Assembly (NCBI GenBank): GCA_031213475.1
Contig: JARUPZ010000015.1
Location: 10,444,528 to 10,508,527 of the forward strand
Reading direction: 5' to 3'
Length of the DNA: 64,000 nucleotides
From: Nereocystis luetkeana
Taxonomy: Eukaryota > Sar > Phaeophyceae > Laminariales > Laminariaceae
Every line of letters starts with the position of its first letter. The first letter of the stretch is position 1. A program made the translations under genes and the position numbers. Below, one piece after another: positions 666 through 62,520 of this stretch. The notes under the pieces were generated by a model. It was given only the letters and a program-made list of their open reading frames with translations, made no database searches and had not been told where the DNA came from.

Positions 666-2399
666 AAGTGCCCAACGAGACAGGTATATATTTCCACCGG
701 CATCATCTCCTCTCCTGTTGCTGTATCGTACCAGGTATCATATATATATGCCAGGTATGTATTGACAGAGGCAGCATGAGGAGTGTTCGTTGTTGTACCG
801 GCACGTACCTGATGGTACAGTATCGATCGTGCAACGTACCGGAATTATTTTTGTTATGGTTTTCGCGTTGGGTCCGAGAGCATATACATGTATGTGTGTG
901 CGCCGTCGACTTTTTAGTGATGCGTGGCATTGTATTTGCTCCTGAACACCGACGACAACAATTTATTGGAACGAAGGTATCTCCGATTTAAAGCTCTCAA
1001 CCCCTCAGCCCGTTCACCCTTTCCCGGACCATGTGTGTGTGCCGCCGGCACACATGCGCAGCCTTGTATGCTACAATTATACTACAGTAGTAGGTGAAGC
1101 TGTTTTTAGATGTGGCGCTATTATTCCCTTTACAGCTTTTCGTACTTACTTAGGCTTCTTCTGTTGCGAGGGGGGGGAATATCGAGCGAACGAGCGAGCG
1201 ATGTAGCGGGCGCACACTAAAAGAATACACATACCAGGTACATACGTAGACTTCGTGAGTGTGGGTGGAGGTGGGATGGTGAGCGAGTGGGTGGGGGTGG
1301 GGGTGGGATGGTAAGTGAGTGGGTGTGGGTGGGTAGGCGTGTATGCTGTGTACTGCTGTGCATCGCGGTTTTCATCTATCTGTAATTTGTATATATGGAG
1401 GTGTTATCTTTATCCTTGGACTGAAAATTATAATCCCCACGGGGACTATTGTTCTGTGCCCCCTCTTTGCTCTACGTACGGCACACGCAAAGACAGTAGA
1501 AAGTAAGTGGTGGGTAAGTATGTCCCTGGGGCGTTTTTTTTCAATAATAGGTATCGTCCAGCAGCAGTGTGTTTGTACGTATGTGAGAAATCACAACCCG
1601 TACGTAGTACGAGGTGGGCCGGGCAAGACACAAACATAATGGCTGGACTAGATATCCGAGGCGGTTTTTGGGAATCAGGAACTGAAAATTGGACACGTGT
1701 TTTCTGTTTGTATAGGTAGTAAACTTATTTACGAGAGGACGTTTTTTTTGCTTGTTTTAATTCGTGAGCTTCCCCAATATTATTGGAATTGGGATTTTTG
1801 TTTTGCGACGAATCGTCTAAAAAAATTGAGAACAGAAAAACGTACCACCGTGCATATATATATCTGTTATACTCATAAAAATCGATTGTCAATATTTCAT
1901 ACAAAAAAAGCGAAAAACTGGGCTGGGAGATCGGGACTTTGTGTCCCTCATCGTAACATCTTGACTTAGTATAGCGTATCATAAACACACTGTATCTCTT
2001 GACAGACAACGAAATAGGCGATAGTGAGGATATCGATCCTTTCGCCATGCGCCAGGAAATGTTCACACCGAGAATCAGCGTGATCCACTCCGTACAGATT
2101 TTCGCGGTTCGTAGAGGCTTTCGTACGGAAAATATCTACGTGTGTGACGGGATTTATCAGATATTTCTCGACGAAATCAACTCGGATTTCAAAATTTGGG
2201 GTGTCTGCAAGTGCGCGGTGGGCTTAGGAACACGCTTCTCAAATTTAGAATCAAAATGTTGACAAATGACTGCAAAACCACCAATCGAATGAAAATCTGT
2301 TTTATGGCTGGCCCAGCTCGTTCATGGCAGCCGTAGTACAGTAGTATAGGAGGTGACTTCCTTATAGATGACATACAGCACATGCGAGGGATAGAATTA

Positions 2400-2665
2400 T
2401 TCATAGTGGTCAGGCGTCTGTTGCGTGCCGGGCCATCGCAGGGCCCCCCCGGGAGGGCCGCCGGAAGCCAAAAATTGCTATACACGGTATGCGCGAAAAT
2501 ATGCCCGAAAACCAAGTAACAAAGTGCGTTTAAACGCCACCCTAACCTCGAAAAGGTGTGTATCGGAATTAGAACCTAAATTTCCTTTGTTGTACTTGTA
2601 GGGCGGATAGAAAAAGGGCCATTTTGACAAAAATGTTGCGCCAGCGCAACAGCGCAACAGCTAAT
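2400..2665 (+). repeat. Dispersed repeat family R, copy 1
   Basis: It shares CCGAAAACCAAGTAACAAAG, TCGAAAAGG.G.GTATCGG and CCAGCGCAACAGCGCAACAG, in the same order and orientation, with 40100-40505. No coding domain is recognised. Confidence 0.75.
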
Positions 2666-2854
2666 TGTATCCCTGGTACGTGCTGCTGAACTGCTGCTGT
2701 AGTCGTGGGTCGTGGTTTCCGTTGGCATGGAGTTCTTCTGCCGGGGGTGGCAAATTATCACCCCCCTGTTTTTGCATCTCCGTATTATTTATTAGTTTAT
2801 GTACGTACATCAGTATTGTGTTTATATGTATGTCCGTGTCATACTACTATTCGT

Positions 2855-3060
2855 AGGTATTGCGATACGGAGGAGGATAAGCTGGTGCGAGCTCTGGGCA
2901 CGAGAGCACCGGAAGGCGAGTGCAACATTGCGATACGGAGGAGGACACGCTGGTGCGAGCTCTGGGCACGGGAAAGCGCCGGAACGCGAGTGCAACACAT
3001 TGCTCCTGCCTTCCGGTGCTCCCATGCCCAGAGCTTGCACCAGCTTATCCTCCTCCGACT
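2855..3060. repeat. Two direct plus one inverted copy of a ~75-bp block
   Basis: Direct copies begin at about 2858 and 2926 (GCGATACGGAGGAGGA, TGGTGCGAGCTCTGGGCACG). An inverted copy follows at 3005-3060. Folded, the second and third copies form a long near-perfect hairpin. Confidence 0.85.
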
Positions 3061-3100
3061 CGCCAATCTCACGAGCGATCGCGTTCAGAGGGCGGTCCTT
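3010..3100 (-). CDS. Exon-like fragment, part of an inverted triplication
   Basis: Downstream of exon 23 a strong acceptor GGCACACAG|AAG opens a phase-0 frame with IAREIGESEEDKLVQALGMG. It could continue SIN3, but no similarity to its C-terminal domain is visible and no GT donor is clear (a GC donor GAAG|GCAGG is possible). Two degenerate copies of the same block occur on the plus strand at 2855-3000, so it may be a duplicated repeat rather than an exon. Confidence 0.25.
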
Positions 3101-3744
3101 CTGTGTGCCATACCAAAACACACGAAAAGTATTATGCTCAAGCTTTATAACTCGGAGGCAGAGCACGATCTAGATCATGTAGACAGATCATGACCTACTG
3201 TAGATCATGTACACTATATCCTGCCGTCGTGAGATTATGTGCACGTTCTGAACCTGTGTACAGGAAACCTGTGCTGCTGTAGCTCATGCAGCTTCTATGG
3301 CATCCCCCCTCATGTCTAAATATAAACTACCGCAGTAAATAGATAAACATATCAAGGATATACCTTCCCTGGTGGGTCTAAACCTTGAGGTGGGCATTGG
3401 GGATCTGCAACCCGGACCAAATTTTTGGAGATAACAAAAAGACCCCTCAGGTGCGAGATCGATATATATATTTCTTCGAAACTCATCTTTGTAAGCTATG
3501 TGTGATACGTCGATTGCGGGTGCTATACGGGTCGTACATGACCTCGTGCGTCTAAGCGGGACGGTGTATACTTCAGGAATCGCTTTCAGGCCGATTCGTG
3601 TAGCTTTGCCGCTGCTCTAGACTACCTATATACAATACCGTACAAACATGTTCTATATTTACGCTTACTACGTAGTTTTTTTTCATGAACCGAAACCGAT
3701 TTATTGTTGTCAACATTTAACTTTGCCTGACACACCATGAAATA

Positions 3745-4115: not shown

Positions 4116-4910
4116 TGGTGAAAAACAGCTTCGTCGTTTGTGGAAAGACCAAAAGACACATATATACGACGAGGTACAACGACGACGTCGTGTAGATTCT
4201 ACACCCTCACGCAGCTCCTATCACGTAGTAGGTCAGCCTGCAATATGTTTCGTTGCTGACCCTGGAGGGTCTGATCATGCCTCTCCTAGTCGTATCCCAC
4301 TGTGCTCCCCTACCCTGACTGCTGTGGCGGCCTCGGGCGTGGGTGATATATTGCTTGCTGCTCGCACGCCCCATTAATTTGTCTTATATATCAAATACAG
4401 GCAGATTTCCTTATTATGTAATGCTGCTCGGTAGTATTAATAGTGATGATGGTATCCCATTACAAATTTATAAAGCAATATTACCAGGTATGAAATACAC
4501 ACCGGAAAAAAATCCCCCTCGTGGCAAGCTACGTGCAACCTCGAAATATACATTTATTTGGTTTCCCAAATAGACACACCCACTCCTTGAACTCTGCAGC
4601 GTCAATTTTAGTTTTCCTCTTGTACGGACTGTATTTCCTGCATGAGGCCATGTAAAACCCAAAGAACGCGCAATCGAGTATCACACACACAGCTTGCAAA
4701 GAAAAGTTTCGACGAAATCCTCGATCTCACAGCTGTTGTTTTTATTCTATAAATGTACATGGTACACCAGACGCTTCTTCTCACGCCTCTAGATGACAGG
4801 GTACTATCCAATATATACTACTTCTGATTTATAACCTACGTCTATTATATAGAAGTCGTCAACAATTTATTCTCTAGAAGTAGTCTACATCGGTGTGATT
4901 TTCCTCTGAC

Positions 4911-5009: not shown

Positions 5010-8000
5010 CTGTTTCCATCCCAAAAGCCGTAAAGAATGAACAAACGAGGACGACCCAGCGGACAAAGCTGACGGTATCGGTTGAGGAATCGAACCAACG
5101 CACAAATGAATCGAATTAACAGACATATTCACCAACGAACCCACGAATGAACGAGCGGTGTTCGTGGAGCAGCTCGTCAATCGTAAATCTTCAACCTCTA
5201 CGAGGCAATCGCGAATCCTCGATCGTCAGTTACCAGTCTCGAATCAGCAATCATCACTATTAAAAACGTATATCGGGGTTTAAAGCCATACCTGGTACCC
5301 ATTTTAAACCAATCCGGCATGAGACTATACCGGAGAGCACACGACAAATCCACGTACCTGGTATATCGGCTAGACACCGAAACAAGTGCTTGGAACTAGT
5401 ATGGCGTCATTTTTTCAGTGGTACCAGGTATGAGATAAGACCATATCACTGTAGGGATAATACTATATTTACTATTAAATACCTGGTAGTAGCTTGTCAG
5501 TGGGTGGTCTCAAAATGTTAGAATGGGTACACTGCTGTCGCCAATCACAAATGACCAACAGTGACATGCCATATCGTCATACGCCAAACGAGACCAAACG
5601 AGAAGCGCCAAGAATTGGATTTCCTATCGTAAATTTGTTTCACGGTCCGTGGATTGTCTGCAACAACTAACCCCGGGTCCTGCAGACGAAGAACCTGACG
5701 TCGTAAATTTGTTTCACGGTCCGTGGGAAGTCTGCAACAACAAAAAATATACATGATCAGGGTCTTGCAGACGAACAACCTGACGACGGCGCCATGGTCC
5801 CATGCAATCACCAACACTGACACCAATACTGACAGCACCACCGCCCTCACCCCCACCAAACACCAACCACACTACTCGAACGACGCAGTTCCTGAAAAAG
5901 TAAGCGTAACCCCCCGCCCCCCGCCCTCCCACAACCCCCCCCACCCCCCTTCTCCCTCATAGCTACCTGGGTGCACAGCATCATGCGCTCGGAGCTTGGG
6001 AGCAACGGTCCCAAGTCCACCCCTCCATCCACATCCATCTCGCTTTCCGAACCCTCCGCCCCACTCCCTGTACCCGAACTACCACCGCCTCCATCTCCAC
6101 CTCCTTCTTCGCTGAGGGGGGAAGGCGGGACCCATGCCGCTTCTTCCGGACGAACCTTCGGGAGGAGGTTGTAGAGGGAGGGCACGGGAGGGAGGGAGGG
6201 AGGGAGGAAGGAAAAGGGGGAGGGGGGGAGTTGCAGGTGATAGCTCAGCTTGCGCTCGCCCACGTACAGCTCATGTACCGAAATACTCTTCAATGGCACG
6301 CACACGAGGTCCTAAGGCATGCGTGCAATCAAGCTAAGCAGCCCCGCCACCAGGTACCGAATAACACTAAATACCGGGCACAACACGCGTGAGTGACTCG
6401 GTTGATACCACACCAACGTCACCACGAACACGCACAACACAGGATTCGACCATTTCCCCACAAAACCAAAGCCCGTTCGTACTATCGTATAAAGTACCGG
6501 GCACTCTTTCCAGGCCCTCTCCTGTAGTATTGAACGGCAGGAAAATATCCCAGAATACCAACCTTTTTCATGCACGTGCCGCAGCAAAAACCCCTCCCGC
6601 TTCCCTCTACAACTCGCCCCATCCCCAGAAGAACGCCATCCGTGTTCAACGGCAGACCCCCCCCCCTCTTCCTTCTACAGCCTCTACCTCAAGCAAGGCC
6701 TGCCTGGTCGGTAAACGCCAGACGTGCTCCGTCCCGGTACTGTAGGGGTCTACGATCATATAACTACGATCATGCATTGCATGAGTACCCCCCCCCTGCT
6801 CCGTGTTGAAAGGGATGCGCAGATAACACATGAGTACACCCCCCCCGCCCTCCCACTTCTCTCTACAACTCCCTCACTCACCAGAAGAATCTCCTTGGCA
6901 TCGACAGCGACGCGTTCCCCCGTGGAAACCATTACCCCCTCCATAGAGATGACCGGACCGGGCGGGACAGCCCGTCCAGGTGAGGGGATCGGGGCCGGGC
7001 CCCTTGTCACTGCCGTCACGCGTGCCTGCCCTGTCCTCAACAGAACCTGGAGGAAGAAGACAACACAAAACACAATCAACGTGGGAAAATAAAAATAAAA
7101 AGGAGGAATGGGACAAAGGTATTAAGGGATGATTGAGGTCGATGCTATTGGTACCAGACAGGTTGCTGAACGTTTGGCCAAACCTCCCGATCCAATCACA
7201 GTCGACATGCGGAGGCGGTGTCTCCCCCCCCCCCCCCCCCTCGCCACCCCTCCCCTCTCCTCTCCCTCCGTTATTTTTGGTTCTCTTCTTTTGGTTAACT
7301 AGTTAGTAGCTGTGAAATCCTGCTGATTGACAGCTGTGTGAACAGGAATCAATCGTGCTTTTCGTCGAATTCACACCCGGCAGATTCGTCATGTATTGTG
7401 ACTACGTACAGAGTCATAATCTATACCCACGAGGCAGACCTGCTTCTCAGTCGCGGGATCAGTACTCGAGGACCCGAGAACCCTTCCAGCAGATCACTTG
7501 AGCGGTAAAAATAGTCATATTGGACAGCAGTGCCGTACCCACCAGACAGGATGCACTATTTTTTATTTAATACCCTGTGGTGCTTCGTATCACTGGGGTA
7601 CTATTGGTGTTTTTTAAAGTGAATAGTCTACTACTCCTAGTCACCAGGGCTGTGACTTGGCTGACTACATTTCGGCAACAAATTATCAGTTGATTGGTTG
7701 GTTCGTTGGGTATTACCGTGCCTCGATTAGAATAGTTTTGGCTAGGTATTCAAGTTATTCAATAGTCGTGTGCGGTAAACTACGGGAGTTCTGCGTCTTT
7801 GCATATGAGTGGCGCGTTTATAAATCGAGGATTGCTTTTAATTGATACCTACCAGGTACTAAACTGTAGCACCACATATAACCCCTCAATGAATAGTATA
7901 GGAAATACTGCAACCCCTCTATTCGGGACAAGCTACCTGCAACTAGTGTAGGGTTGTGGTTTTGCACGAGAAACAATATTCAAGTCAGTTAGTTGGCATA

Positions 8001-11000
8001 ATTCGGCACCCCACTATTAACACTAGTATTTAATACCAGGTACTGGTACTCTATACTGTACCATCTAGCCTTCAAGCCCAGCCAATTTACAGCCGAAACA
8101 AGAGTTTGCCAGGTTACCATAGTGGCTACCCCTTTTTAGGAGACTTCACCTCGACTAAGAGAATAGTACAGTTGAGGGAGGCTGAATTGCCCGGAGCCGC
8201 CTACACATACGTTTTCCACTACTACTATCCTCTACACAGTGGATGAGAGAGACGGTTATGAATAGTGAAGAGTGGCATTTTCGGCCTGTACCACACCTCT
8301 CTTGGGTCGGGGTATTCACTGTACTTATCGCATCAGGTACTTGGGATAGGCTCACCAAACCGCTCGTCTCCACCTGTGCAAGGCCAGGGGTTGGAGTCCC
8401 CACCACCCCCCTTCCAATAGGGTCGTTGGGCGGCTTCAATATCCTACGGTCAGAATTCTTCTCTTCCCAGGACAACAAACCTCCCATCCACGCGCGTAGA
8501 ATCGGCAGAGTCCTGTAGTGCAAAGCATGAACAAAATCCCGCTCGCCGGGGAATGTGGGGAAGGCGTTTGAAGAGAGGAGGGGGGCGGGGGGGGGGGGGG
8601 GTGTACTCGATAGGAGAGATATACTCGATCTCGTGCATGGCCGTAGTCGTATGACCATAGACCCTCGCATCCCTACAATGGCGGGACGGAGCATGTCGGG
8701 TTTTCACCGACCAGTCAGACATTGCTTGCACCTAGCGTGAAGCGCCATGAGGTGTCCGGCGAGTCGCATGAAGGGCGAGCTGCATCCTACTAAGAACCGC
8801 TTGTGAGGCGGACTCGCATATCGATGACGGCTTCAATGAGTTCATTTAATTCCCGGTGTAGCCACTTCCTGAGGCAGCAATGGCAGTACCATGTAACCGA
8901 CTCTTGGGTGTCTTACCTTGAACACTACCAGGTACGTGATACGATCAATTCCCATGTGCGGAGTAAGAATGACACTATTACGGCAGATACGGAGGGGTCG
9001 GGGGGGGGGGGGAGGGGGGAGGTATTCCAGAAGGAAACAAAAGAAGAAAACAAACTGCTGATTATCCGGCTTGTTGGGGTAGCGTACGTACCCTATACCC
9101 TATTGCTGGGGTACCCTTACTTCAACGCACTGAGCACACACGCTGTCTCATGACACTACACGTATGGCACGCCCACATAAATAAGAGGACGGCCGTTAAG
9201 ACGACCACGCTTGCCATTTTGATGTCGCTACACAGCAAGAGTCGCTCTACAGCAGTGTCGGTATGATATGCGCCAGCCAGCCAGCCAGCCATACCGTCAC
9301 TATATCATACCGGCAACAGGCACTACTCCGCACACTAACACACTGGTCAATATACATCTGGGCCGAACGATTTCAAAGGCCCCATCTCGTGGAGGGCAGC
9401 CGACACTAGTCAACCGGCACTATAGAGGGAGCAGTACTAAAACGACCGTACTTCCAACCATAAAGGTCCTACAATAAATACAAAATGAAACTTGACGCGC
9501 TGCTCTGTTGTCTGACGGCGAAACTCACCGGAGCATCTTGGCCTTGTCAGCCAGGAAGTTGGAGGAACATTTCACGGCGTGAGTGAGCAGCTGGTGCAGG
9601 TCTCGTCGTACCTCCGCCGGAGGATAGACCAGGGTGACGTGTGGCTGCACAAAGTGCGGCGCGGTCGATTCCAGCTTCACCCTGCCAAGCACAAGAGCAT
9701 GCACAACAGCGCAAGAACACAAGGACGAAACATAATAAAACGGGACAGGAAAATTACAAGGACGTACTCAAAACACATCCACAAGCTAAAGCACGAGCAA
9801 AAGCGCCAGGACATTCACGAGCACGCCCTCAAATTTAACCCCAAGCAAATGTACAAGCACACGCACAAGCAAAGCAACAACAAACAAGTGCAACCTCCTA
9901 TCCTAACCGAAACACGCACATCAACAAGCAATCAACCACCACCAAGACCAAAACGAACGCGTACTATGTCATGTCATATCATATCATGTCATGTCATATT
10001 ACGTTACGTTACGTCATGTAATACCTGGTAGTACGTTTCGTTACGTCACGTTATATTATGTTACTTGTATGTTTTTTATGCTATGTTATGCTATGCTATG
10101 CTTTGATACGGTAGCTCTGTGGTTGTCATGGTATGGTATGGTATGATGCAGTATACACAAAAAAAATAGCCGAACTAAAAAAAGCGTGTGGTATCATGTT
10201 CCCCACAGATACACGAGGAGACCCGACGACTAAAAAAACACAAAAAAAGGGTCACGATTTTGAAGAGCTGTGTATCGGTTCGGTTTGAGATATTTCTGAT
10301 TCCAGAGAAGTAAAAATGGGTTCGCCGGTTATATTTCTTCAAGCTACCTAGCGCAAAAATGTCAATTCTGGTTCGAGGTAATGACTGGTAAGGTTCAAGA
10401 TTGGGCAAAATGCCTTGGCATGGCCATACCTACGGGTACACAATAGACATACTAGTATAGCAGGTATTCCGGCTTTAGATCATTCTGATTCAAGTCCTAT
10501 AGTAGTGCTGCAACCCTTGTTCTTGGGACGAAATACTTGGGATTAGCGCAGGGTTGAGGGTTGATTTATGCTGCAGTAAAGGGGCTAGGAGAGGCTGGAC
10601 TTTCTTGGCACACCTCTCTCTTAGACCGTGCCCATCAATTGAAACCAAAAACAAAAGGTTGCAGTGACCCACCCACCCACCCACCCACCCACCCACCTTT
10701 CAGCAGTGGCGAGACTGGCCGCCTGCACTTGAGCTTCGTACTCTGCCACTTTTTCCTCCTAATCACACCCGCGCGACAAATAATTAGATAAGGGGATAAG
10801 GATGTTAAAGCAGGCAATTTTACAGGCATGAAGTATTGAACTACTGTACTTCATTAATAGTTAATTTCGGGGAAAGGGCATACTAAGTATATATTATACC
10901 AGGTATTATATATACCGGGTATATCCGTAGAGAACGCCGGGAGTAGACGGTATGAACAAGATACTATTGATAGTATACCTGGTATATAATAAAGAGGGTA

Positions 11001-14000
11001 ACCAACAGCGTCCATAACCTCCCTCCGGTCCCCCCGGAATACACCTTTCCACTCACCATGGGCGTTTGCTGGCCCTCCACCCCCTCCCCCGCCTTCGCTC
11101 CGTTGCCCATCGCCGCCTTGGCCGTCGCAGCACTCCCCCTACCCTTCCCCTTCCCCTTCCCCTTCCCCTTCCCCTTCCCGGGGTGGCCATAGTCGAAATC
11201 GTCGGTTTCCACGGCGTCACCGTCTGGCCCTGCCCCCTCCAGAGAAAACGCCCCCGCCAAACCATCGCCGCCATTTCCGTAAACCTGAAAAACGAAACGG
11301 TACAAGAGCTGTGACCTGGCGGAATTTCACGACTAACAACTAAATCGGCAAATCGGTAGTAGGTGCCCAAGTAAGCCAACAAACTGACTTACTTATACTG
11401 CTATTAATACTCTTTGGGAACGAAACCGCACGCATCGAATTACAGACGCATCCCTCAAGTAAGTGCAAAGGTGCAAAGGTGCTAAGATGCAAAAACGCAC
11501 ACCTCCGTAAATATTCCCGCACGCAACTCGCCGAAATACCTAGCCAACTAATAATCTACGTATAACATAGTCGGCGACTTATAGCCGGCCAAGTTACAGC
11601 CCCAGCAAACGGAGTTTCTTGCCGTCTTGTTTTTCTACCAAAGAAATGACGAGAAAATACACCTGGGTGTATGAGGTGCAGTGCTAGTCACCTGGTATGT
11701 ATCTAGCCTTTGATACGACAGGCTACCAAGTAAGCCCCAAAAATATGCGAACTCAACACAGTCGCGACAGGGAAAAAGGAAACGAGAAGAAACACAAAAC
11801 GATAACGAAATATGTACCTACGTATATATGATTCCGAGTACATAGGCAGCAAAAAGTAGAACAAGCAGAAAAGGAAAGAGAGAACAAACGAACAAGAATA
11901 TGCAAAAACGAGATAAAAAACGAGATAAAGGTCAAACAAAAATCGAGAAAAATACAACCTAGCAAGTACTTAGTGACACATTTCATTGGCCAGAGAGGCA
12001 GTTTCACGACAATCAAACGACAGATAGATGAGATACTCACCGCCTTCCCCTTGCCCTTGCCGATACTCCGAGCAGCTGCAAAAAACGGGCAATCAGCAGC
12101 AGCAGCGACAACAGCAAATCACGACAGCATCAGCAGCAGGCGACCAACAACAGCACCATTATTGTTATCGTTATAATTTACGTTCCTGGTATGATATGTA
12201 CCTGCTACACTACACTAGTACGTACGAGTAGCTCTGCTTATCATTTCAGGACCAGTATTGCTATTATTGAGGGGAGGATCCCTGATACCTCCATTGTTGT
12301 TAGTGTTATTATACGAAGTACTATTAGTATTATTCCTGTGATTACTAGAAACAAAAAAATAACACATTTTCAATCTTCCTGGGCTATGGGTTCCTGCGTT
12401 CTCAAACCGCCAAGCTACTCGAATCGGCACTTTCAGGATACCACACTCGAGTCGGCACTTACTTTTAGGATGCCACCTTCTCTGGTCACTGTTTGTTCCG
12501 CATTAAAAATGGTTGGAAACAGCAAAATACGCATTGTTCCGTCTTCCTGGGCGATCGGTTCCTGCGTTCTGAAACCGTCAAAGGTGCTCAAAGCGGCACA
12601 TACTGGGCCGCACCTTCTCTGTTATATACCAGGTATACAACATTATTAAGTTATCTACGTAATAGAAATACCACAATGTACACAGTAGTAGTGGACTATT
12701 TTCTATTTTCGGCCTTCCTCGGCTATCGGTGGTTGCGTTCTGAACAATAATAGTCAAAGCTTTCCGAACCAGCGCGCATTGGGCCGACCCTTTTCTGGCA
12801 GGTGCCTCCTTGCCCTTGGCTTCCTCACCTGCTTCCATCACAGCCCTCCCATCGAACGCCTTGGGCTCTTCCTCCTTGGACATCATGGCTAAACGCCTGC
12901 CAGGATTAGGGGTGGTAGGCAATAACAAACACACGACCAAATTGTTCAATAATAATCATGATTCGAACATTATGGGAAAAAAGTTCTTGATCTTTCATCT
13001 TCTCCCGATCTCTCTTTTCTGCCTGTTGTACGTACTCGTATATGGGAGTATCACTCGCGGAGAGCTCGAAATCGGCCGTTCTCTCAGAAGGAGCTGTCCG
13101 AGCTCGCTCCCAGAGGTTTCTAGCACACCTACCCATTTTGCTATCAGGGATACAGGAACTATGTTTGACGACGGCACAGGGTTTTCCTGTTTCGCAATAT
13201 ATAGTTTCCACGATTCCAAGAGAGTGAGTTGTTTTTGTCCCCGGATCAACGTTGATCGCATCAATAGTTTCGAAACATGTAGTGGTATAGAGCGGTATAG
13301 TTGGTTGGTATCGTGGTATCGTGGTATAGTAGTCTACACGAATCCCTGCAGGGATGGGCAGGTGCGGTCGAAACCCGTGGAAGAGATGTCGTATCAGCAG
13401 TCGTTTTTCAAGAGAACCTCCGATGCTGAGCTCTCCCCGGAAAATATCAGGAATGGTAGTTACCGGTAACAGGAAACTATCGGTAACTCAAGTGGGAAGT
13501 GTCGTACTATTTCTAAAACCTGAGGTAACGTTTGGAGTCCCCTTTCCACCTGCAAGAAAAAAACAACGACCCTCCTCATGAACCCGAGGATAACCCTTTC
13601 GACTCTGATTTGTCATAGTCCGACATCTACAGTAGGGGGTGGCAGTGACTCCACGAATTATGTTGCCCAGGTTGATAGCCCGATGTTCGCGTTGAGTCCC
13701 GTTCATGGATCACTCGGGCGGGGAGGTTGAGGTTTGAAGGAGAATAGTAGGTGCAAGGTGGGGGCGGTAGCCACGGAAATAATGACGGCGGCAGGCAGAG
13801 AGAGGACCGGGTGGTCTTTGTTCACAGCAGTACTGTACTACAAGTACAACAAAATACGAAAAACAAAACCTTTGAAATCGTTTACCTGGTACCTGGTATA
13901 GTCTAGTATACGGTAGAGGCATAATTCTGTAATATTACTGTAATGTCCCTCGTGAATACCAGGTATATATATCGAGAGAGGTCTATCTACCAGTATGTTC

Positions 14001-17000: not shown

Positions 17001-20000
17001 GTCGTCCGTCGGTTCCCACAGTATATGGTGGTGTTTGTTATTTCTACTAATCGTCGTCCGTCGGTTCCCACAGTATATGGTGGTGTTTGTTATTTCTACT
17101 ATTAATAGAATAACTACGGCAATCAACACACATCTGGCGGATCAGAGGAGATCATATTAAAACAAATCAGATCAGATCATATCCCTATTTAATTATATAT
17201 GTGATTAACTTTAGCATGTTGATCTATTAATACAGTACAACTTTCGGGACAGATAGATAGATCTGTCTCGTGGAGGCATTCGTCTCACACTCACGTCCCC
17301 GTCGAGTTCCGAGATATCTTGAGCCATCAGATCGAGCAATCTGATGGTGCTTCCTCCGGTCTCGATGAGCATGTCCAGCTCGAAACGCTCGTCCTCGCAC
17401 TGCAGAGCAGGCACGACAGTAACGGCAGTTTTTTTAGGCGGGAATGTCACGGGAAATTACGGGAGACCAGTTTTTCTCCGTACGCAGGGCTGTGTTCGGC
17501 AATAACCGGGGACGAAAAACAACCATCCCCGGGGTTGGCGGTATCCGTGACATACCCAATCCAAACACGGTATGCCAGTAAAAACAAAATCCATTGTAGT
17601 ACCTTAATATCGTATTTCCGATAAGCTTCTATTAAATATGGAGGTTAAATGTTGATCCGATCAGAAAGCCCGAATTTCGCACAAATGCGGAATGGGACCA
17701 CAGAGTTGGGTCGAAATATCTGTAGAAGTGTGTCGCAAGTGGTTCATTTGTTATTTTCGCTCCCGAAACCTCGTCAGCAGAGTAGGTCACGAAACTCTGG
17801 AGACTTGAGGCCATCTTGTGAACCCACCCGGCAGTTGTGGACAGGCATTTTGAATACACCATATCATAGCCCCATGAACAAGACAGAGCCTAATGACACC
17901 ATTTATACAGTAAGAATAAAAACAAACATAAAGCCCACGTTTTGCTTGTGGGGGACGCTAAGAAGTTTGGACTGAGAAACTGTACTCAGCAGCGAACGCA
18001 GCACTACTGACGTATGGTCAAGGCTCTTCAAGGATGGGGTTAGGTTCTAGGGCTTGCTCAAAATAGGTACGGTACCATTGTTCATTGTTCATTGTTGGCG
18101 GACTCGCATTGCATTACTCGTACAGTATTTCAGCACTGCAGCAGTGAGAAGATTGGTAGATATAATACGTCCAACGAAATTCCCGATCTCATATTATACC
18201 TACGTAGCTAAGTTGCCCTTTAAAACTTCTAAAAGCGCAGGATACAGCTGTCTCTAGGAACTCGCGCAGCAGGATATTTTGTAACTGTCGTCAACTTGGG
18301 TGAGTTGTTGGAAGGGACACATAACCTAACAGAAACAGACTGTTTGGAGATAAAGCCAGAAAACGGTATACCTCGTGGGAGAGGTACGACGGACGCGGAC
18401 GTTTCAGGCAATTCGATTTGGTCCCTATTTTCGTTCATGCCGTGCAAATTGGAAACTCGTTTTCGCTCTCTACATACTAGCAGACCTTGAAGAGGAGTTC
18501 TTCGTGGCGGGTTTTATGGGCGTGCTTGAAGGCTACGTCGCCGCCTCCGGTCTCGGAACCCATCGGTATGCTCACCCACTTGTCGTTCAGCACGGACTGA
18601 TCCAGGTTTGTGCGCTGGTGACAAAAACAACGGGGAGATATTGGTGACATCAACGGTAGTGGCACAAGTAACGTCCACGGTAGTGATGACGAACGGTAAC
18701 GCCAACGGTAAAAACAACGGAAACGTCAACGGTAGTGACACCAATAACGTCAACGGTAATGACAACAACAACAACAACGGTGATGACAAAGACAAGGTCA
18801 ACGGTACTGTCCTCATATGTATGATCTGGCTCACATTTCCTGCGTTGGATATGTACTAGACAGGTCCTGCACAATTTATCATGACGGCAGGTTAGGATCT
18901 AAACGATCTAGACCATGTATTTTGTAGTAGGGCAGCGTTGGGATGGTGGTCTGTGATATCCGATTTGCGCAACTATCCAATATCAATCACTAAATACGAA
19001 GTATCAAACACCAGGTATACCTCACTAGAGCTCAATATGGGGATTCGTTTTGGTAGTAGTCGGTAACTGGTTCCCGCCTTCTCGCTCTTGGTGAAGTTCA
19101 GCTGACTCAGGGCAGTGTTTCTCTCCATCTGCTCCCGAGTAGGCACATAGAGGCGAAGAAGGGGAGAGACGGGGGGAGGGGGGGGGTACTCGATAGGAGA
19201 GATGTACTCGATCTCTTGCATGGCCGTAGTCGTATGGCCATAGAGGCAAACAAAGCCAGGTACGTACAAGGTATTAGAAATTAGAACTACATCCCGGGTA
19301 TATATTCCCTCGGATAATTTCCGGTTGTCCTCAACGCTGGATAGACGCATCCGGTCATTAGGCCATGTGCCCCAATTTTTCTATCGAATCACTTTCCAGG
19401 CTTAGTATCTTGGTTTCAGAATGCAATCCTCCCGAATGGAAGCGTAGCACGTTCGTTACTAAACTTCTGAAATTTCCTTTCAAACTTTGAAACTGCTGTA
19501 AAGGATCGAGAAATCTTGAACGTGGACCACAAGTGAGCGTAGAGGTAACGACGTATTTTCACCGTGATCGCCTCCTAGAAAAACAGATACCAGGTATGAT
19601 TTTCAACTTTGTATGATAGCAATTCAATACATTAGAGTTAGTTGGGATACCCCTTCCATATACGAAACTCTGTGGTCATACGACTATGGTCATGCATGAC
19701 ATTGAGTGCTCCCCCTCCCCTGCATGCCACTACGGCCATGCAAGAGATCGAGTGCATCTCCCATATCGAGCACACACACCCCCCACCCCCCTTTCTCGAA
19801 AGGGATGCGTGATCACTGACTGGTCAAATGCCAAACGACTAAGGCAAGCATAGAACGAATACGCCCCTCGCCCCCCGCCCTCCCTGGCGTAACATATTTT
19901 ATATGTACAACGAGTACGGGTATCTAAAATGAACGCTACCTACACCTCGTACTACAGCACACACCGATTTGTTCCCGTGGGGAACGACTGGAGTATTTAG

Positions 20001-41398: not shown

Positions 41399-41431
<33 letters not shown>

Positions 41432-43450: not shown

Positions 43451-43899
43451 TGGTGGTATTGAGGCGCGACCTCGGTAATACCTGCTGTAGTCATATCTGC
43501 GATGCATCATGCTGGGCGCATACGGATTATTTTTGTACCAGGTATTATTGTGCTGAACGAACGAACTCGAAGGAATATCTACCACGGACGTACTACTGCT
43601 TTGTACTACTGTACGCCGTGGTGGGTGCATCTCAATAATTTTCATAAATGTTCTTGGCCTCTCCTGGCTCTTGATATGAAAAAATACTGGATTTGGTAGT
43701 GCGCTTCCTGGTTTCCACCTCGAAATCCGGCATAATTTGAATACGAAATCTGCACTGCTGTGACCACAGAACTTGTATCTCTCTAGGGATTGAGGAATCG
43801 GCACGGACACTGCTGTGGTGCTGGATGTCGACGGGTAGAACGAGTCAAGAACACACAACACTCGACATGTTTTGTCCAGCAGAGTGTTTTCTGGTTGAA

Positions 43900-46994: not shown

Positions 46995-47890
46995 CTATCA
47001 ACAATCATAAATCGAAGCCAGACAAAGCCCGTTCTTGCATCCCTCGTGTCTCGAGGTACACGCGACGCCTAGGCACGAAAGCGGCGACCGCGGTCCTTGC
47101 AACCCCCCCTCTACCCGCCAGCACCCGCTGACACCCGCGACGGTGCCGGGTCCTCCCGCGATGCCGTGCTCGGAGAACACGCACGCACACGAAACGAAAG
47201 AAGAAATAAGGAAGAAAGGACCGAGAAAACAAAGAACTGCTGGAAAGGTCCGGCAAGTGATGAAAGGAGGCGGTTTGGAACTGGGAGCTCTGATAGGCCA
47301 GGGATGCACCAACCGAGCACGCTCAGGGGTTGTGATCTAAGTATGTAGTGTAGTATACCAGGTACAGTACAACAATTGAAAGGCAAGAACGAAATTCCGG
47401 CCATTTTTGAGGAAAGGAGCTCCGGGTCATTCAGCAAACGTTTCACCCGAAAAGCGCTCTAAATACCTACACTGCTGTATTCCTTACTATTAATGCCAGT
47501 CCTGCGCAGTTACGAGACAGAGTGATCGTCGGCGAAGACAGATCGCCCCGTGTGTGACGCTCCAACCCCCCCTCCTCTATATGCCGCGTTGAAGCAGGCT
47601 CCATGATACTATGGTGTTGATACCCCAAGGCGGCGCAGACGTTGACGCGGCCGAGAGACGCAGCAACAGACAAAAAAGTCGACGGCTGGCGGGAGCATGT
47701 GAGACCGCAGGTACGAGGGTGAAACAAGGTGAAATCGGAGAAGCAATTCAGCTATGTACGGGGGGTAAATCGAAGGGATAATAATGAAAACGTATTTGCA
47801 CCGCTCTGAAGGCTGAAACTGCGAACTCGTGTAGGGAACCTGTACCTGCAGAAAGAAGAAAGAAGAAAGAGATACCTGGTATACCAGTAG
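46995..47890. other. Region with GC-rich patch, no supported gene
   Basis: A GC-rich block at 47040-47180 is open in two minus frames (one with GIAGGPGTVAGVSGC) but has no clear splice signals. The rest shows no feature beyond TACCWGGTA palindromes at 47354 and 47872. Confidence 0.35.
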
Positions 47891-48339: not shown

Positions 48340-50950
48340 AAAATACAGGGACATATGTATATTTCACTATTTGGAGCGGATGCGAGTTTCTAATTTTGAC
48401 GGCGCCGAAAAAGAGGGACCCCTTTCGAGATGGCCGAAGCCTGTTTCCACTTGATTGGTCAGTATTTATGTCTACGCGGCATAATCTCGAAAAACTTGCT
48501 GCGGAGCACCACGCCCATCAACCATCAAAACCAACTATTAATAAGACAAATCACAGACCAACACAGACAGCAAACAGCAGTACAGCACCGTCGCTGGAAA
48601 CACCGAGAATACCCAGCTGTGCGCCATTCCATAAGGAAGACTACGTAGAGGTGACCACTGCTGCTGATTTTCCTACTACCGCTGTTGCTGCTGCTGCTCA
48701 TGCTGTGTTGGTCCTTTGTTCGGGCCCGTTTCGAGCTTGCTCACGACGATTTCATACGATGTCCGCCAAAATAACACGTAATGAAAAACCAACACAGACA
48801 ACAACCAGCAGCACAGCAAGCACAACTCCAGCGCTGAACAACGCCAAAAGGGCCCAGCTGCACGCCGTTACACAGAAAGGCCAGGGGTGATCGGTGCTGC
48901 CGCTACTCTCCTGTGTTTCCTGTTTTCGCTACACTGCTGGCGGCGGAGAGTCGGATGGGGGGGAGGAGTCGGATGAAGAAGTTGTCAATGACGTTTCGGG
49001 TGGAGAGGCAGGGATGATGGGATGACGCTCATTGGACATTTCGGGGCAAAATGCCACCCTGATGTCCTTGGTTGGTTGACGAGCGACTCCGGCTCTGACC
49101 ACGTTTCTGTTCCCGATTCCGCATCGTTGTTTGGGGGTTTCGTGGGGGAGGGCGTATATTGACCGGATGAGATGGACAAGGTCGACATGAAACGGAAGTC
49201 AAATTAGATCGGGGAGGGGTGAGGGAGGGGAGGGGGGGGCTAGCTAAAGATCACCATTCATAATGCTAGGATTGGTTCCTTGGGTTTATTTTGTATCACT
49301 TTGTCCCTGAAATATAAGGAAAATGTGTATTATGTATCAATGTGCGGACTGTGTTTATATATAGATACAGAGTGTCACTGCTGTGTCGATTTAAATTCGT
49401 TCCTAGCGTTGCCAGTAGATTTTATGTATCGCCTACGTCCATGACAGACGCCGCATCATACGACGGCAAACCGTAAATATATAGTTCCAGCAGGACAGAG
49501 AAGAGTGCGCACAGAAGAACATTCGATTGAAGAACATTCGATTGTCTCATCATCACCACAATTTCCACACCATTACCTGGTTCATTCATTTCTTGCTACT
49601 TGCTATCCGTTATTTTCTGTACTGATGCCTCCAACTACCGATGACCGATACAGCGTTGAACCCAGTATACTGATACAGTCCAGTACACTGATTCCTTGCG
49701 ACGCCAGCATAATACGTACTGGTTGACGCTGGTAGTGCGCAGCCCTGACGTTGTTGGTATTATTGGTAGATGCAGTTTTCAGAAGTGAACGCAGAACGCG
49801 TCGCGGCAGTGGAGTACCGAATGTGACTGTGTACACCACACCCCCGGTGATATTATATATTATTACTTCTGCACAGCACCTTTGCTGTCACTACTACTAC
49901 TGTACTTTGTTTTCTTCGTGTTTGTCGCCACCTCTAGCAGGGTGGTCCCGCGTCACGAGATAACTATGGTATTTTCTGCGGCCTACACGGGGGCGAGGGG
50001 GGTCATCTGCCTGCGAACGGACACAGCAACCCTTGCTGCGGGAGGGAGGGAGTGAGGGAGGCTGCAGAGTCAAGTCCACTTCGAGGCGGGCTGGTTGACT
50101 GATCCCGAGGGCCTGGAAATATCAATACAGGCAAGGGAAGGTTTTCTGCGGCTGGCTTTTTACGTTTTCAGCGTGCTTGCGATGCCAATGGTGTGATAGG
50201 CCGGTATGTTATATGCGCGCATTAATCTATGGCGGCTGGGGGGCTTGAGGCGGCCCTTCGGTCAACAACAACAGCAGTGCACAAACACACTTTCCCTTTT
50301 TTGCTTTGCAGCTGCTATACTATGTATGGTATTCAAACGGCGTTTCTTGACTCTCTACCCAAAAAATAGTTACGTGCATTACTACTGTAAGCCTCGGATC
50401 AGCTCCCTATTTTTGTTTTGTGACCGGCTATATCGCAGGACGTTATTTTTGTAACTGGTAGGTAGTTGATCCCACGCACGCGTGCGTCATCGCGAAACTG
50501 TCTCAATTACAGGGAAGGTCCATTGTTATGACGCTCGACTCCCTACGGCTACTGACATTGTTCCAATACCAAACCTCGGATTCGCTCCCCAAGTACACTG
50601 TAAAAATTATACCAGGTAGGCGATATTTTTGTCTCAGGCGCATGATCGCTCCCACGGGTTCGTCATCGCGAAAAGTACCTTAGAAGCAGGAACACAACAT
50701 TTTACATTTTCCTGACTATGATACGCTTTTCGTAACGAAGAGTGCCTGCTGGGGACGATCCTGCGCCAGATCAGAAGAACAGAGCGGATCATATCGTATG
50801 GGCTTTCTTAAAGCCCATTCAGGGAGCTAGTCCGAGGGTTGGCGATTGAGTACCTTCGTTTCTTGTACGGAATCATGCAACGTCGTTAGTGTCCCAGAAA
50901 TAGTATTGCAGCTATAAAAAAACGGCTTTGTCTGTTTTTTTGGGTGATCG
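48340..50950. other. Region without a supported gene
   Basis: I see short Gln/Thr-rich and Ser/Pro-rich frames (48520-48890 plus; 48985-49188 minus) and G-rich runs at 48957 and 49225. None has a family match or a good exon structure. Confidence 0.4.
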
Positions 50951-52008: not shown

Positions 52009-52762
52009 CCTTAGGCTGTTTCCTATGCGTCTTGATTTTTGACCTTCAGATTTTGACCCGATCGTTGTTTCAGATTTGAACTTGGCAAATCGAAACAGTC
52101 TTCCTATGCGGAAATATCAGATTCATTGTGCGTGCAGAGATTCGAGCAAACGCCGAGACCAACGGCTGTTCTTGTGATCTGGCGCCGCAAAGAGATGCGT
52201 TGGGTGCGCTGCACTGCGCGTAGGACCCAAGCGTCCGAGCCGTAGCTGAATTCCTCTGGTCTGGCGGCGAAGAGACGTGGCGAGTGCGCTAGAATCAACC
52301 TGCCTTCGTATTTTGTGATTCATTTTGTGAGTGTGACTGCTACTGCTGCTGCGAGTACGCGACGAGTGCTCTTCTCTACCAGGTAGGTCTCTCGGCCCGA
52401 GGCCGCGCCATCCGACTGTAGTCTGGTCACCATCGACTGGACAGATGCGCCGCTCGCCGACCGCGCATCGGGTGCGAAGCAACGTCGCTGTACAGCTGTG
52501 TCACCATCCAACTCATCGACTCATCGATCGTTCTGCTGCTGTTTGCTGCCGTGGAGAACATGATGAATTTAGAGAGCATTCCATCTTTCGATTTGGAAAT
52601 CTGATGACCCAAGTCGTCGGAATTTCGTCGGACTGTCAAATCGATTTTTTTTTCGGTCGGATTTTGCATGCTTGGACTGCATAAGCAGGGGCATTCATTT
52701 TTTAGATCGAAAATTACAAATCTGAAGCTCTAAATCGAACCGCAAAGGAAACAGCCTTAGGC
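52009..52762. mobile_element. Terminal-inverted-repeat element, ~0.75 kb
   Basis: Left end CCTTAGGCTGTTTCCTATGC, right end complement CCTAAGGCTGTTTCCTTTGC, continuing with CTTGATTT/TTCGATTT. CTTAG at both edges could be a 5-bp target duplication. The interior is GC-richer and has no recognised transposase; the open frames there overlap on both strands. Confidence 0.72.
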
Positions 52763-58199: not shown

Positions 58200-59550
58200 T
58201 GTCCCCAAAACGGGACTGGGGTCCTCAAAGGGTTAAATACCGTCCGTCCGTTTTTCGAAGCCGGTATCCAACACTGGTTGTATCTACTAGACGAGTTTGC
58301 CGCGGTCTGAATCGAACGAAGGGAAATAATGCACTATTAATAACAAAAAATGGAGTGTAATAAGCGTCCGGAGATGAATTAACTCAATTGTTGATTGAAC
58401 GGGCGCAAATGTGGCCCGTCGAGCGAGCGATGTCATTTATTGTTGTTGTTAGCAGACGATATATGTCTTGAGCTACTCGTATTAATTGTGTGAACTAAAA
58501 AACAAGACAATTCCCTAGGCAGTGCGACTTAATTCAGTGTTTTTTTGGGGTAATGTTAGTAGTGCATGATCTCTGTGGACTGTGACCAGTCTGAGAGTAC
58601 CACTGTTGACAAAAAGGCACTCGTGTTGTTCCGTATACACTGTTATTACTCCGTTGAGAACACGATCATGACGGTGTATGTGGTATTTCTCTTATATCAT
58701 AACGCTAAGTTTCTGTACTTGCGCGTCCTCATTATGTCGCAAGGAAGATGTATTGGTATGATATGTGTTGTCTTTGTTGTTGTGTGCATCACCGTTTGAC
58801 GATTTTATATTCTTTTCGTGATCTACTGCTGTGGATATTATATTGTTTCATCATGTTCTTGGTTTTTGACACTCATTCACGCTACACCTTGTTGGATGGA
58901 AAATTAAATTCTCGTATTAATAGTTGGGATGACGTCCTTGCAAACCACGTCCGACACCTATTGACGGCCTATAGGCTTACTTTCGGTACATTGGCTGAGT
59001 TTGGTGTCCGTTGGCAATTGGTTGGCCTTTCACCAGTAGCCCAGCGGACTATTGCCTTAATAAATGCCATCGGCAAGACATGGGTCGTTGACAAATATGC
59101 ACTGAGACGGGACTTATGCCCCTTGACAGACGGGGTCAAGACAAATGCCTTGACGGCGAAACCCGGGGACACGAAGCAAACATCCCCAGTTTTTGAAAAA
59201 AAGCATGGCCATATTTTTGGAAACCCGTATTTTCCTGGGTGGCTTCATTTGAAAACAAAGGATTCAAATATACCTGGTAGGGGTTTCCACACAGATAATG
59301 AGGCGTTTTTCTACTGGGGATGGGGGACAATGGGGGCACAATCGGTCTAGACGGATGCGAATACCTTGACGGACAGCCTTGACTGGATGAGTTCTTGACG
59401 GTGGCCCGCCTCATTGCATCTTTGATCGTTGATCGTGAGTTCGAAGCTCACGTCCACAAGGAAAAGTACTTTTTAAAGAGAAGTGATTTTTCTCATGTCG
59501 ATCAAGCATCTGAAAATAGTATAGGAGCAGTGGGCGACGAAGACTTATTT
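58200..59550. other. Region without a supported gene
   Basis: A 200-codon plus-strand frame (58748-59350) has a hydrophobic start but contains a TATTAATA and a TACCTGGTA palindrome and no family match. CCTTGACGG-type motifs recur at 59120-59400 and resemble 27420-27540. Confidence 0.4.
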
Positions 59551-59642: not shown

Positions 59643-60185
59643 CTGGAGGTGACTTCTGGGAATTCCCTCCGTTTTTTCAATCTATTCCACGTATAAGAGA
59701 AAATGCGATGTGCATACGATGGTGCTTTTCAGCACATTCTTCGCCCACCTGGACTCACTCGTTTGTATTTCTTGATTTCCCACGGGCAAGTTGCTCATTC
59801 GCGATAAGCGCTGAGAACGTTGTCGTTGACAAACTGCACCGGTCGCCGCAGACAAACAAACATCGTCTCACCTATTCTACCACATATTTGGGTACAAACT
59901 ACTTGGAATTAGTGTATGCACATTTTTACAGTGTACCTGGTAGTATATAAGCGGCTATGTGGACTAGCAGGTATACCTCTCACTAGGGGGCCTTTACCCT
60001 TTTCCCTGTTGTGATGGGAGTTCCGGCTTATGGGTTAGGCCTCACTTTTGGACCCGGTAGTCGACATTGAGGCTTGAGACTTGAGACCTCCCATGAACAA
60101 ACTCTAAAGTCCTATAGCCCCCACTACAGAGATCTATGTCGAGAACTAAGCGTGATGGGCTGAAATTTACTACTATTAATAGCTC

Positions 60186-60197
60186 TATACTATACTA

Positions 60198-60229
<32 letters not shown>

Positions 60230-60268
60230 GTACTACTGCTACTAATACTACTGCTACTAATACTACTG

Positions 60269-60316
<48 letters not shown>

Positions 60317-60320
60317 TTAT

Positions 60321-60379
<59 letters not shown>

Positions 60380-60535
60380 ATACTATCATACTACTAAAAT
60401 GCTGCTACTAACCGCGTACAACAACTGCTGCTGCCACTGCTACTACTGCTACTGCTGCTGCTGCCACTGCTACTACTGCTACTGCTACTATTAATACTAC
60501 TGTTACTACTATCACTGCTACTACTCATACAGTAC
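60186..60535 (+). repeat. (ACT)n trinucleotide array
   Basis: Pure to slightly interrupted ACT at 60198-60378, then CTGCTACTACTG-type degenerate units to 60535. Confidence 0.95.
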
Positions 60536-60563
60536 TACTACTCCGCATGATAATACGTGACTC

Positions 60564-60700: not shown

Positions 60701-60989
60701 TTACGACGACAGGCGAAACTCGGGAGCGGTATACTGAACTTAGTGTGGACGGCAAACATCTGTGGCACCTGGTATGCTACGTTCTCTATTTGGAGTATCG
60801 TACTGCACACACCCCTCCGCGCTGACTACGTGAGCTACGGAGACAACCAGGGTACATATCGCTGTGTTTTTTTAGCGGTCGCCGCAACTGGCGGTCGAGT
60901 TAGATCATTTGTACGGGGTGGAGAACCTTTACTCCGCCCAATGAGAAATATCGTACAATATCACGTGATGGTGTCTACGGTAGGCACCC

Positions 60990-61210
60990 AAGAGGCAGTT
61001 AGTTACATAGATACTCGTAGGCCGTTGCTGTCTCTGGAGTGGACCCACCCCGAAAAACAATCAATTCTACGCTGTCATCCATATGCATGCATGGAAGTCC
61101 GCCTCGCGAGCAGTATATGCAGGATGGAGCCAGCTCACCCTTCATACGACTCGCCGAACACCTCGCTGCGCTTCGCGCTGTACCTACAGCATCTGTCTCT
61201 CGGTAGCTGT
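60990..61210 (+). mobile_element. Poly(C)-ended repeat, degenerate opposite-strand fragment lacking the tail
   Basis: The reverse complement of the family middle is recognisable: GTCCGCCTCGCGAGCAG, GAGCCAGCTCACCCTTCATA, CGACTCGCCGAACACCTCGC. Confidence 0.55.
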
Positions 61211-61485
61211 ACATGCATATCATCCATCATGCTGCGCAGCTGGGCGAACAGACAACGTATTAATAATCCGTTCTCGTAGTGCTGGGTGTCAGGTATCAGG
61301 TATCAGGTAGAAGCATGCAATATGCGCACGGTAACTAAGAAGAGGCAAGCTGACGGCATCCATTTCACACCTTGGATAACGCAAGACGTAGTAACGCTTT
61401 ATGTCAATGCTTGGCGTCAGCGAAACCCCCCCCGTAACATTGCGTTACTACGTTAACTACTTTCTGGATGTTTCATGACATGATA

Positions 61486-61595
61486 TTATTACGGGGAACC
61501 ACAGTAAATAGGACCTAATATTGTTGATTAAAGTAGGCAAACATAGAGGCTATTGTGTGTACCGTAGGTCCTATTTAATATGGTCCCCCGTATTA
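61486..61595. mobile_element. MITE-1 copy 5
   Basis: Ends ATTACGGGGAACCACAGTAA and TATGGTCCCCCGTAT. The arms are more diverged than in copies 1 and 4. Confidence 0.8.
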
Positions 61596-61599
61596 GTTT

Positions 61600-62520
61600 G
61601 CTATTATATTGGCCGGCGATCGCGTAACATTATGTCAGAGTGTTACCTTGATCCCGTGCTGACCGCAGCATATCAAATGTGTTACGGTGTTGGGGCATAC
61701 AGCCCATCGCGAGTAACACCATGTTAGCGTGTTCGCGGATGTCCTTGTGGTTATCGTACCAGAAGTTGAAGGGATAACGTACGTGGTGAATCAAACGTTA
61801 ACATTATCTTACCGTGTTAGCGATATCAACCCGTGGCGAGAAACGTTGTGCTCTTAATAGTGTGTCAGCGGGATTCTTACTTGCTACCGTGACACCCTTT
61901 AAACGGATAACGTACACGGCCAAATGAACGCCTAAGTAATACTCAGTACCAGGTATGTTCGCTATTAATATTACGGGGGGCCATAGTAAATAGGACCTAC
62001 GGTACACACAAACACCCATATATTTCGCCTTTTTTACTTACCATATTTGGTCCTATTTACTATGGCTCCCCGTAATCGTGTTTTACAATAGTGAAATTCG
62101 TGGTGGCTATCGTAACACACTTTAGAGGGATTACGTAGATATGGTTAATGATTAATACAACGTTAACAGTTAACATGTTTTTACCGTATTAGCCGCAGCA
62201 GTCCGTAGTGTCGAGCGACGTTGTGAGAGGGTGCTAACGGTATGTCTTGCTCCCATAACCTACGTCAAACGGATAACGTATACATATGATCGATAAACAC
62301 TATTTGATACATAGCATTATGCCAATGTGTTGCTAATAGCTCGTGTGTAATGCGTGTAGTGGCAGAAGTTTTCAATAGCAGATAACGCACACCCCCAATC
62401 TAACATCAAGAATAAGTTACAGCCGTGTTAGCTCGTACGTGCGAGTATGCAGATTACGTAGATGGATAAATTACGCATGACCACAGTGTTAGAGATGGAT
62501 AACGTATTAGCGGGGTTTTA
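61600..62520 (+). repeat. Degenerate tandem sequence with GATAACGTA motifs
   Basis: GATAACGTA or GATTACGTA recurs at about 61774, 61905, 62118, 62271, 62380 (GATAACGCA), 62453 and 62496, often near TGTTAGC or GTTAAC. A related block restarts at 63940. Interval is about 70-210 bp. It is interrupted by MITE-1 copy 6. Confidence 0.6.
61969..62076. mobile_element. MITE-1 copy 6
   Basis: Starts ATTACGGGGGGCCATAGTAA and ends TACTATGGCTCCCCGTAAT. It is inserted directly beside a TATTAATA palindrome (61963), inside the degenerate GATAACGTA array. Confidence 0.85.

Follow-up and report, generated by a model that had tools for sequence, protein, structure and literature searches.

The window analyzed here, the whole 64,000-nucleotide stretch under study, comes from the brown alga Nereocystis luetkeana (bases 10,444,528-10,508,527 of contig 15, in an assembly of 465 Mb). 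It holds SIN3-type frames with PAH repeats on the minus strand (22685-23278 and 26726-27001), copies of a dispersed repeat (8622, 21974, 32166, and 54856), simple arrays of GGATAA, GTA/TAC, and CGGGT (39319-39785, 41157-41470, 60168-60542, and 34470-37028) and, scattered among these, the TA-bounded 9-mer TACCWGGTA (W is A or T). A preliminary description had counted about 38 copies where about 0.5 would arise by chance, and had read them as scars left by a transposon excised from between duplicated TA dinucleotides. An exact search returned exactly 38, with A at the center of 23 and T at the center of 15 on the plus strand, and 100 dinucleotide shuffles of the window gave a mean of 0.61 copies (standard deviation 0.74) and never more than 3. 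The positions first given held to within a few bases but not exactly (4489 should be 4482, and 20116 should be 20115). The sites are listed below under the name scar, after the reading we favor; none has a strand assigned, the 38 9-mers were placed by exact search, to which a few lines add a comparison with repeat copies, and "empty" denotes flanks joined at a single TA.

729-737, scar TACCAGGTA
1232-1240, scar TACCAGGTA
4482-4490, scar TACCAGGTA
5289-5297, scar TACCTGGTA
5355-5363, scar TACCTGGTA
5422-5430, scar TACCAGGTA
5480-5488, scar TACCTGGTA
7850-7858, scar TACCAGGTA
8034-8042, scar TACCAGGTA
8926-8934, scar TACCAGGTA within a repeat; empty TA form fits better in 10 of 12 repeat copies
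10022-10030, scar TACCTGGTA
10897-10905, scar TACCAGGTA
10976-10984, scar TACCTGGTA
12627-12635, scar TACCAGGTA
13883-13891, scar TACCTGGTA, number 1 of a nested pair, one TA common to both
13890-13898, scar TACCTGGTA, number 2 of the nested pair
13957-13965, scar TACCAGGTA
19588-19596, scar TACCAGGTA
20115-20123, scar TACCTGGTA
20868-20876, scar TACCTGGTA
32470-32477, variant scar TACCGGTA, center base lost; the repeat copy at 8926 has TACCAGGTA at this TA
32759-32767, scar TACCTGGTA in a short repeat; empty form better in 15 of 17 copies
33026-33034, scar TACCAGGTA
37314-37322, scar TACCAGGTA
38742-38750, scar TACCAGGTA
38809-38817, scar TACCAGGTA
40303-40311, scar TACCAGGTA, adjoining mismatched scar-like letters
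41699-41707, scar TACCAGGTA
41853-41861, scar TACCAGGTA
42927-42935, scar TACCTGGTA
43536-43544, scar TACCAGGTA
44484-44492, scar TACCTGGTA, with a TACTGGTA variant after it
47356-47364, scar TACCAGGTA
47873-47881, scar TACCTGGTA; the single homologous copy fits the empty form
50610-50618, scar TACCAGGTA
52377-52385, scar TACCAGGTA
59271-59279, scar TACCTGGTA
59934-59942, scar TACCTGGTA
61947-61955, scar TACCAGGTA

Neither PAH-bearing frame contains TACCWGGTA, and the earlier statement that no copy falls in a SIN3 exon stands for these two frames, to which our result is limited. The largest scar-free gap of the window (20868-32759) spans both of them. The mixture of A and T centers had been taken as a sign of mismatch repair, an argument that does not survive: TACCAGGTA and TACCTGGTA are a single 9-mer seen from either strand rather than a pair of variants, so the mixture is automatic.

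We addressed abundance beyond the window by counting TACCWGGTA and a second word, TATTAATA, across the assembly, each against its reversed pattern as a control. TACCWGGTA occurred 182,395 times versus 1,744 for the control; this count had been named beforehand as a test, and its outcome favors the scar. A 264-kb sample consisting of the window and 20 dispersed 10-kb stretches held 115 copies, ∼62-fold above dinucleotide expectation, an excess unmatched by any other palindrome-armed 9-mer present 10 or more times; it was found in 18 of the 20 stretches. The corresponding 9-mers centered on C or G numbered 12, compared with the 115 centered on A or T, and had no clear flank preference. TACAGTA/TACTGTA was 4.6-fold above expectation in the window plus sample.

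A 7-bp insertion at TA

To compare filled with empty sites we took advantage of repeat copies within this genome, in place of a strain comparison. A script scored each homologue against the filled form and against the form with joined flanks, and other TA-N5-TA sites served as controls; relatives of the dispersed repeat noted above were among the copies used. Scar-bearing repeat copies aligned with copies that have a single TA and lack CCWGGTA, with clear examples at L023:7056 (AAAAACCTACCAGGTATATATTT versus copies of the AAAAACCTATATATTT type) and at window position 8926 (ACACTACCAGGTACGTGATACG versus ACACTACGTGATACG). Site 32759 was less clean than site 8926, with an alignment gap two letters above 7, and site 44484 had homologous copies without the scar letters yet no clean TA-only site. 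In the first set, the empty form was better in 59 of 70 pairs and at 10 of 11 sites (controls, 49/855 pairs and 15/122 sites). An enlarged set, with 40 kb added, comprised 147 scar sites, 27 of which had a spanning homologue; here the empty form was better in 92 of 118 pairs and at 18 of 27 sites (controls, 122/1,221 pairs and 28/203 sites). In one repeat family, most copies have nothing at a TA where one copy bears TACCAGGTA and another TACCGGTA. We conclude that TACCWGGTA is a 7-bp insertion (CCWGGTA) at TA.

The flanks of the scars share a preference that is symmetric about the duplicated TA, reading W A n n n n R before TA CCWGG TA and Y n n n n T W after it (R-1 0.82, A-6 0.52, and W-7 0.83, with the mirror image). 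After collapsing the scars, we gave each of the 17,263 TAs in 304 kb a context score from 0 to 6. An exact scar was present at 133 of them, nearly 1 in 130, and the scarred share climbed steadily over scores 0 through 6: 0/331, 1/2,178, 5/4,640, 25/5,474, 46/3,350, 42/1,132, and 14/158. In 73.5 kb lying outside the DNA from which the context was defined, the shares were 0/57, 0/442, 2/969, 9/1,177, 11/704, 9/226, and 1/38. Nesting also occurred: the 141 sites included eight nested pairs, two of which lie in copies of one repeat. Scar TAs are thus re-used as targets.

Minor products, age, and a candidate second scar

In addition to the 9-mer, we found minor products: TACCGGTA, which lacks the center; the slipped forms TACCAGGGTA and TACCAGGGGTA, offset by one or two; TAC[AT]GGTA, with one C lost; and TACCATGGTA. 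The flank preference was kept in TACCGGTA (18 sites; R-1 0.75, A-6 0.50, W-7 0.81), in TACCAGGGTA (10 sites; 0.80 at all three positions), and in TACCATGGTA (only 2 sites; R-1 0.75, A-6 1.00, W-7 1.00). The empty form was better in 13 of 17 pairs and at 3 of 3 sites for TACCGGTA, and in 4 of 4 pairs, all from one site, for TACCAGGGTA. Where TACCWGG was separated from the following TA by one extra base, that base was G in 11 cases, A in 1, C in 1, and T in 2; it is nearly always G, so there is little sign that letters beyond CCWGG were retained. Two readings were set aside. TAC[AT]GGTA as a scar variant had the empty form better in 7 of 10 pairs but at 2 of 5 sites, and TA-CWG-TA (TACAGTA/TACTGTA) as a clear scar was weak, with the empty form better in 18 of 75 pairs and at 8 of 29 sites versus 96/842 and 22/120 in controls.

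Copies with one mismatch were in excess, at ∼0.9 per exact copy once the expectation was subtracted. They comprised 91 transitions versus 19 expected and 90 transversions versus 37 expected, and words with two mismatches numbered 847 versus 723 expected. Among palindromes of the same letters, 10 of 11 lacked a one-mismatch excess; the one that showed it, CTACAGTAG (29 copies), we put down to trinucleotide arrays. As a rough figure, the scars have diverged by ∼10% on average, indicating that they accumulated over a long time and that many of the older ones have ceased to be exact.

The second word counted genome-wide, TATTAATA (TA-TTAA-TA), occurred 93,112 times in the assembly versus 10,689 for its reversed control; examples lie at L009:3784-3791, L013:7096, L016:6282, and L019:3923. 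It has a symmetric flank of its own, preceded by T A C and followed by G T A. At 16 sites, the empty TA was better in 40 of 54 pairs, and 9 of these sites were majority-empty (controls, 88/652 pairs and 20/122 sites), although 16 of the 40 empty pairs came from a single site (L010) whose alignments were not clean. TATTAATA is likely to be a second TA-bounded scar. At L009:3768-3816, one copy of a repeat has scars of both kinds, TACCAGGGTA, TATTAATA, and TACCTGGTA, within 50 bases, and a sister copy is without all three, the first two cleanly.

Source element and rival explanations

The preliminary description had predicted a source element with CCWGG ends, which we did not find in the stretches searched. 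A scan of ∼276 kb for terminal inverted repeat (TIR) elements gave seven loose candidates, each either not TA-bounded on both sides or a scar pair. Of 116 sites at which TACCWGG comes after a repeat-like flank but lacks the following T, we read 20 and saw no shared terminus or CCWGG-ended element; the letters after TACCWGG differed, or belonged to mutated or slipped scars. On inspection by eye we discounted a TACCAGG...CCTGG repeat in L015/L016, since it is contained in a longer repeat. Comparing 150 scars and 570 same-stretch pairs in inverted orientation over ∼338 kb likewise revealed no shared terminus in the flanks. With protein profiles, PF03184 (DDE_1) matched 28 times in the assembly, several frames exceeding 300 amino acids, and in no control; PF01359 had no match in the assembly but also none in any control, and hence is uninformative. 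One PF03184 match lies in a TA-flanked TIR element (L065:109-2086; G000:C7) with a DDE_1 frame of 542 amino acids and ends CAGTACCGGCCCGCTAGTAAGAAAC; presumably it is pogo/Fot1-like, by its family name. This element resembles the expected source in having TIRs and flanking TAs, and of the two TAs of a CCAGG scar it occupies the right-hand one. Unlike the predicted source, it ends in CAGTACCGGCCC, whose expected footprint would be TA-CWG-TA and not TA-CCWGG-TA. The inverted repeats of L068 do not read CCWGG.

The searches also touched on retroelements. Among the 120 relatives listed for a long interspersed nuclear element (LINE) reverse transcriptase of this assembly, five were given with an organism; the closest of these was a protein (P0003) from a metagenome-assembled genome (MAG) labeled Parasphingorhabdus, at 71% identity, and the other four organism-named matches listed were from Ectocarpus (43-53%). 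Together with L069 and L070, from a MAG labeled Oligoflexales, P0003 represents bacterial MAG records with retroelement pieces resembling those of the host, and these pieces are probably contamination from a related eukaryote. The MAG with two host-related retroelement contigs held 24 TACCWGGTA versus 11 control words, which is uninformative. Viral contigs searched for the MAG-borne retroelement gave no confirmed case. A doubly nested scar was present in nine viral contigs at one site each, which by our own estimate we took for chance.

We consider it probable, at roughly 0.85, that TACCWGGTA sites are the excision scars of a cut-and-paste transposon that targets TA. The empty TAs in repeat copies, the TA-symmetric preference, the nesting, and the slipped products all favor a scar at a duplicated TA, so that of the preliminary reading the excision scar is well supported, the inference from A or T centers falls away, and the expected source element did not turn up in the stretches searched. 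Several observations weigh against it. The filled form was better in 26 of the 118 pairs, 9 of the 27 scar sites were not majority-empty, several of the 74 spanning alignments lacked a clean 7-bp gap, and homologue pairs drawn from a single repeat family do not count as independent. Most of the DNA in the 304-kb set was also the basis of the context score itself; in the independent 73.5 kb, 20 kb of which (L026 and L027) had been chosen for dense sites, the scarred share rises through score 5 and the top bin is thin (1/38). The preference was incomplete in TAC[AT]GGTA (R-1 0.63, which is background-like; A-6 0.48; W-7 0.72), and the two copies of TACCAGGGGTA are too few to judge. The major product keeps the 5 bp CCWGG, longer than the footprints of 2-4 bp reported in the Tc1/mariner superfamily. 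Finally, no TIR element with CCWGG ends appeared in the ∼276 kb; PF13358 had no match in the assembly, compared with matches in 3 of 14 controls; none of the 10 PF03184 matches read, out of 28, was surrounded by CCWGG ends; and the sole TA-flanked TIR element among those 10, at L065, ends CAGTACC rather than CCAGG.

The lack of a source element in the stretches searched, together with a highly uniform product, would also suit another TA-specific break-and-fill process, such as a domesticated transposase or nuclease with templated repair, in which no element was ever inserted. We regard this as unlikely: CCWGG is not copied from the empty site, and a TA-symmetric preference with a slipped series is what excision leaving fixed terminal letters would produce. 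We know of no break-and-fill process of such a kind. The palindromic arms of the 9-mer, its abundance, and its symmetric extended consensus would instead suit a functional site in DNA that selection maintains, such as a palindrome that is bound. This is very improbable given that the TA-only form is better in 92 of 118 repeat-copy pairs, that transition-rich near-copies roughly equal exact copies in number, that the word is present in 18 of 20 sampled stretches, and that nested and slipped forms exist.

The 9-mers might also be the outer ends of intact short elements whose TIRs begin with CCWGGTA. At window positions 10976-12635, 1.66 kb lies between two inverted 9-mers, and 12 of 20 inward letters beyond them match. 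Two other scar pairs also reached 12 of 20, however, and over all 570 pairs the mean similarity was 5.5/20 inward versus 5.7/20 outward. The only higher pair (L026, 5157 and 5482) matched at 20/20 inward but also at 15/20 outward, and because the match extends outward too we take it to be a 0.3-kb inverted repeat crossing the scars, with one in each arm. No Pfam domain was found in the 5 open reading frames tested of the 12 listed for 10976-12635, and the empty-site difference is ∼7 bp, not kilobases; we give this explanation very little chance. The least probable account makes the 9-mer a subfamily mark inherited within a few repeat families, whose spread would explain its number. Some scars do lie in repeats, and three L026/L027 copies have the scar and its flank in common. 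Against this, the flanks of the 150 scars are mostly unrelated (22 pairs with at least 16/24 identity versus 2.4 in column shuffles, several of the 22 stemming from L026/L027), and in the one family described above the same TA bears TACCAGGTA, TACCGGTA or, mostly, nothing.

Proposed mechanism and relation to known transposons

In Sleeping Beauty, the overhangs left by excision pair around a mismatched center. CCWGG is likewise self-complementary apart from its central base. In the process we propose, a transposon would insert at TA, duplicating it, and then leave, TACCWGGTA being the repaired empty site. Both termini of the element would read CCAGG, and its transposase would cut the nontransferred strand 5 nt inside each end to leave 5-nt 3′ overhangs of CCAGG; the overhang and its polarity are modeled on the Tc1/mariner 3′ overhangs described in an excerpt of PMC8151067. 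The two flank overhangs would anneal through four C:G pairs and a central A:A mismatch, and be joined, repair then turning the mismatch into A or T. Such an element would have moved over a long period and would now be rare or gone.

Such a process would work like Tc1/mariner excision with a longer stagger. Insertion at TA with TA duplication, a trait of that superfamily, is seen here in the empty copies and the symmetric preference, the element itself not having been seen. Tc1/mariner footprints are reported to span 2-4 bp (PMC7913693, in excerpt), and since the length observed here is out of that range and no element was found, we do not file the source as a member; a transposase with a 5-nt stagger would be predicted. 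Like Sleeping Beauty, which inserts at TA and leaves a CAG footprint (PMC8151067, in excerpt), the source appears to target and duplicate TA and to leave terminal letters behind, but the scar retains 5 nt (CCWGG) rather than 3. The primer table of PMC2642840 gives TA-CCAGG as the start of the Mos1 5′ inverted terminal repeat (ITR) and TA-TCAGG for the 3′ ITR, so that the same five letters stand at the Mos1 5′ end; mariner-like elements, however, break two or three nucleotides inside the end in vivo according to the same partial source, whereas all five letters are retained here. In piggyBac, the target is TTAA and excision is footprint-free (PMC8151067, in excerpt), in contrast to the TA target and 7 bp retained in our sites. 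One brown alga, Ectocarpus, carries many TA-type families, with 17 Mariner-Tc1 families and almost 12,000 copies reported (PMC12477816, in part); the main text of that paper does not contain the words footprint or excision, and the parts examined mention no CCWGG scar. Of the papers listed as containing the 9-mer in one orientation, none concerned excision footprints by its title or the start of its abstract, and a search for the other strand as a whole word found no paper. No title listed on footprint accumulation or brown-algal transposons reports such scars, in a search that mostly left subscription papers outside.

More broadly, and at slightly worse than even odds, the scars may point to one or two new lineages of TA-specific transposons with unusually long self-annealing overhangs (5 nt, CCWGG; 4 nt, TTAA, in a sister system), near-uniform healing, and no build-up of copies, now rare or extinct. 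In a bolder version, the host might remove these elements in a programmed way.

To our knowledge, excision footprints have mostly been studied singly and in the laboratory. Here, one genome holds ∼180,000 copies of one footprint and perhaps an excess of 80,000 of a second. If the excision reading is true, sequence alone would be enough to measure how targets are chosen in vivo, how long the overhangs are, how faithful repair is, and how many excisions there are per surviving element; transposon activity could far exceed what copy number suggests; and some of the small indels of this lineage would indeed stem from short TA-bounded insertions.

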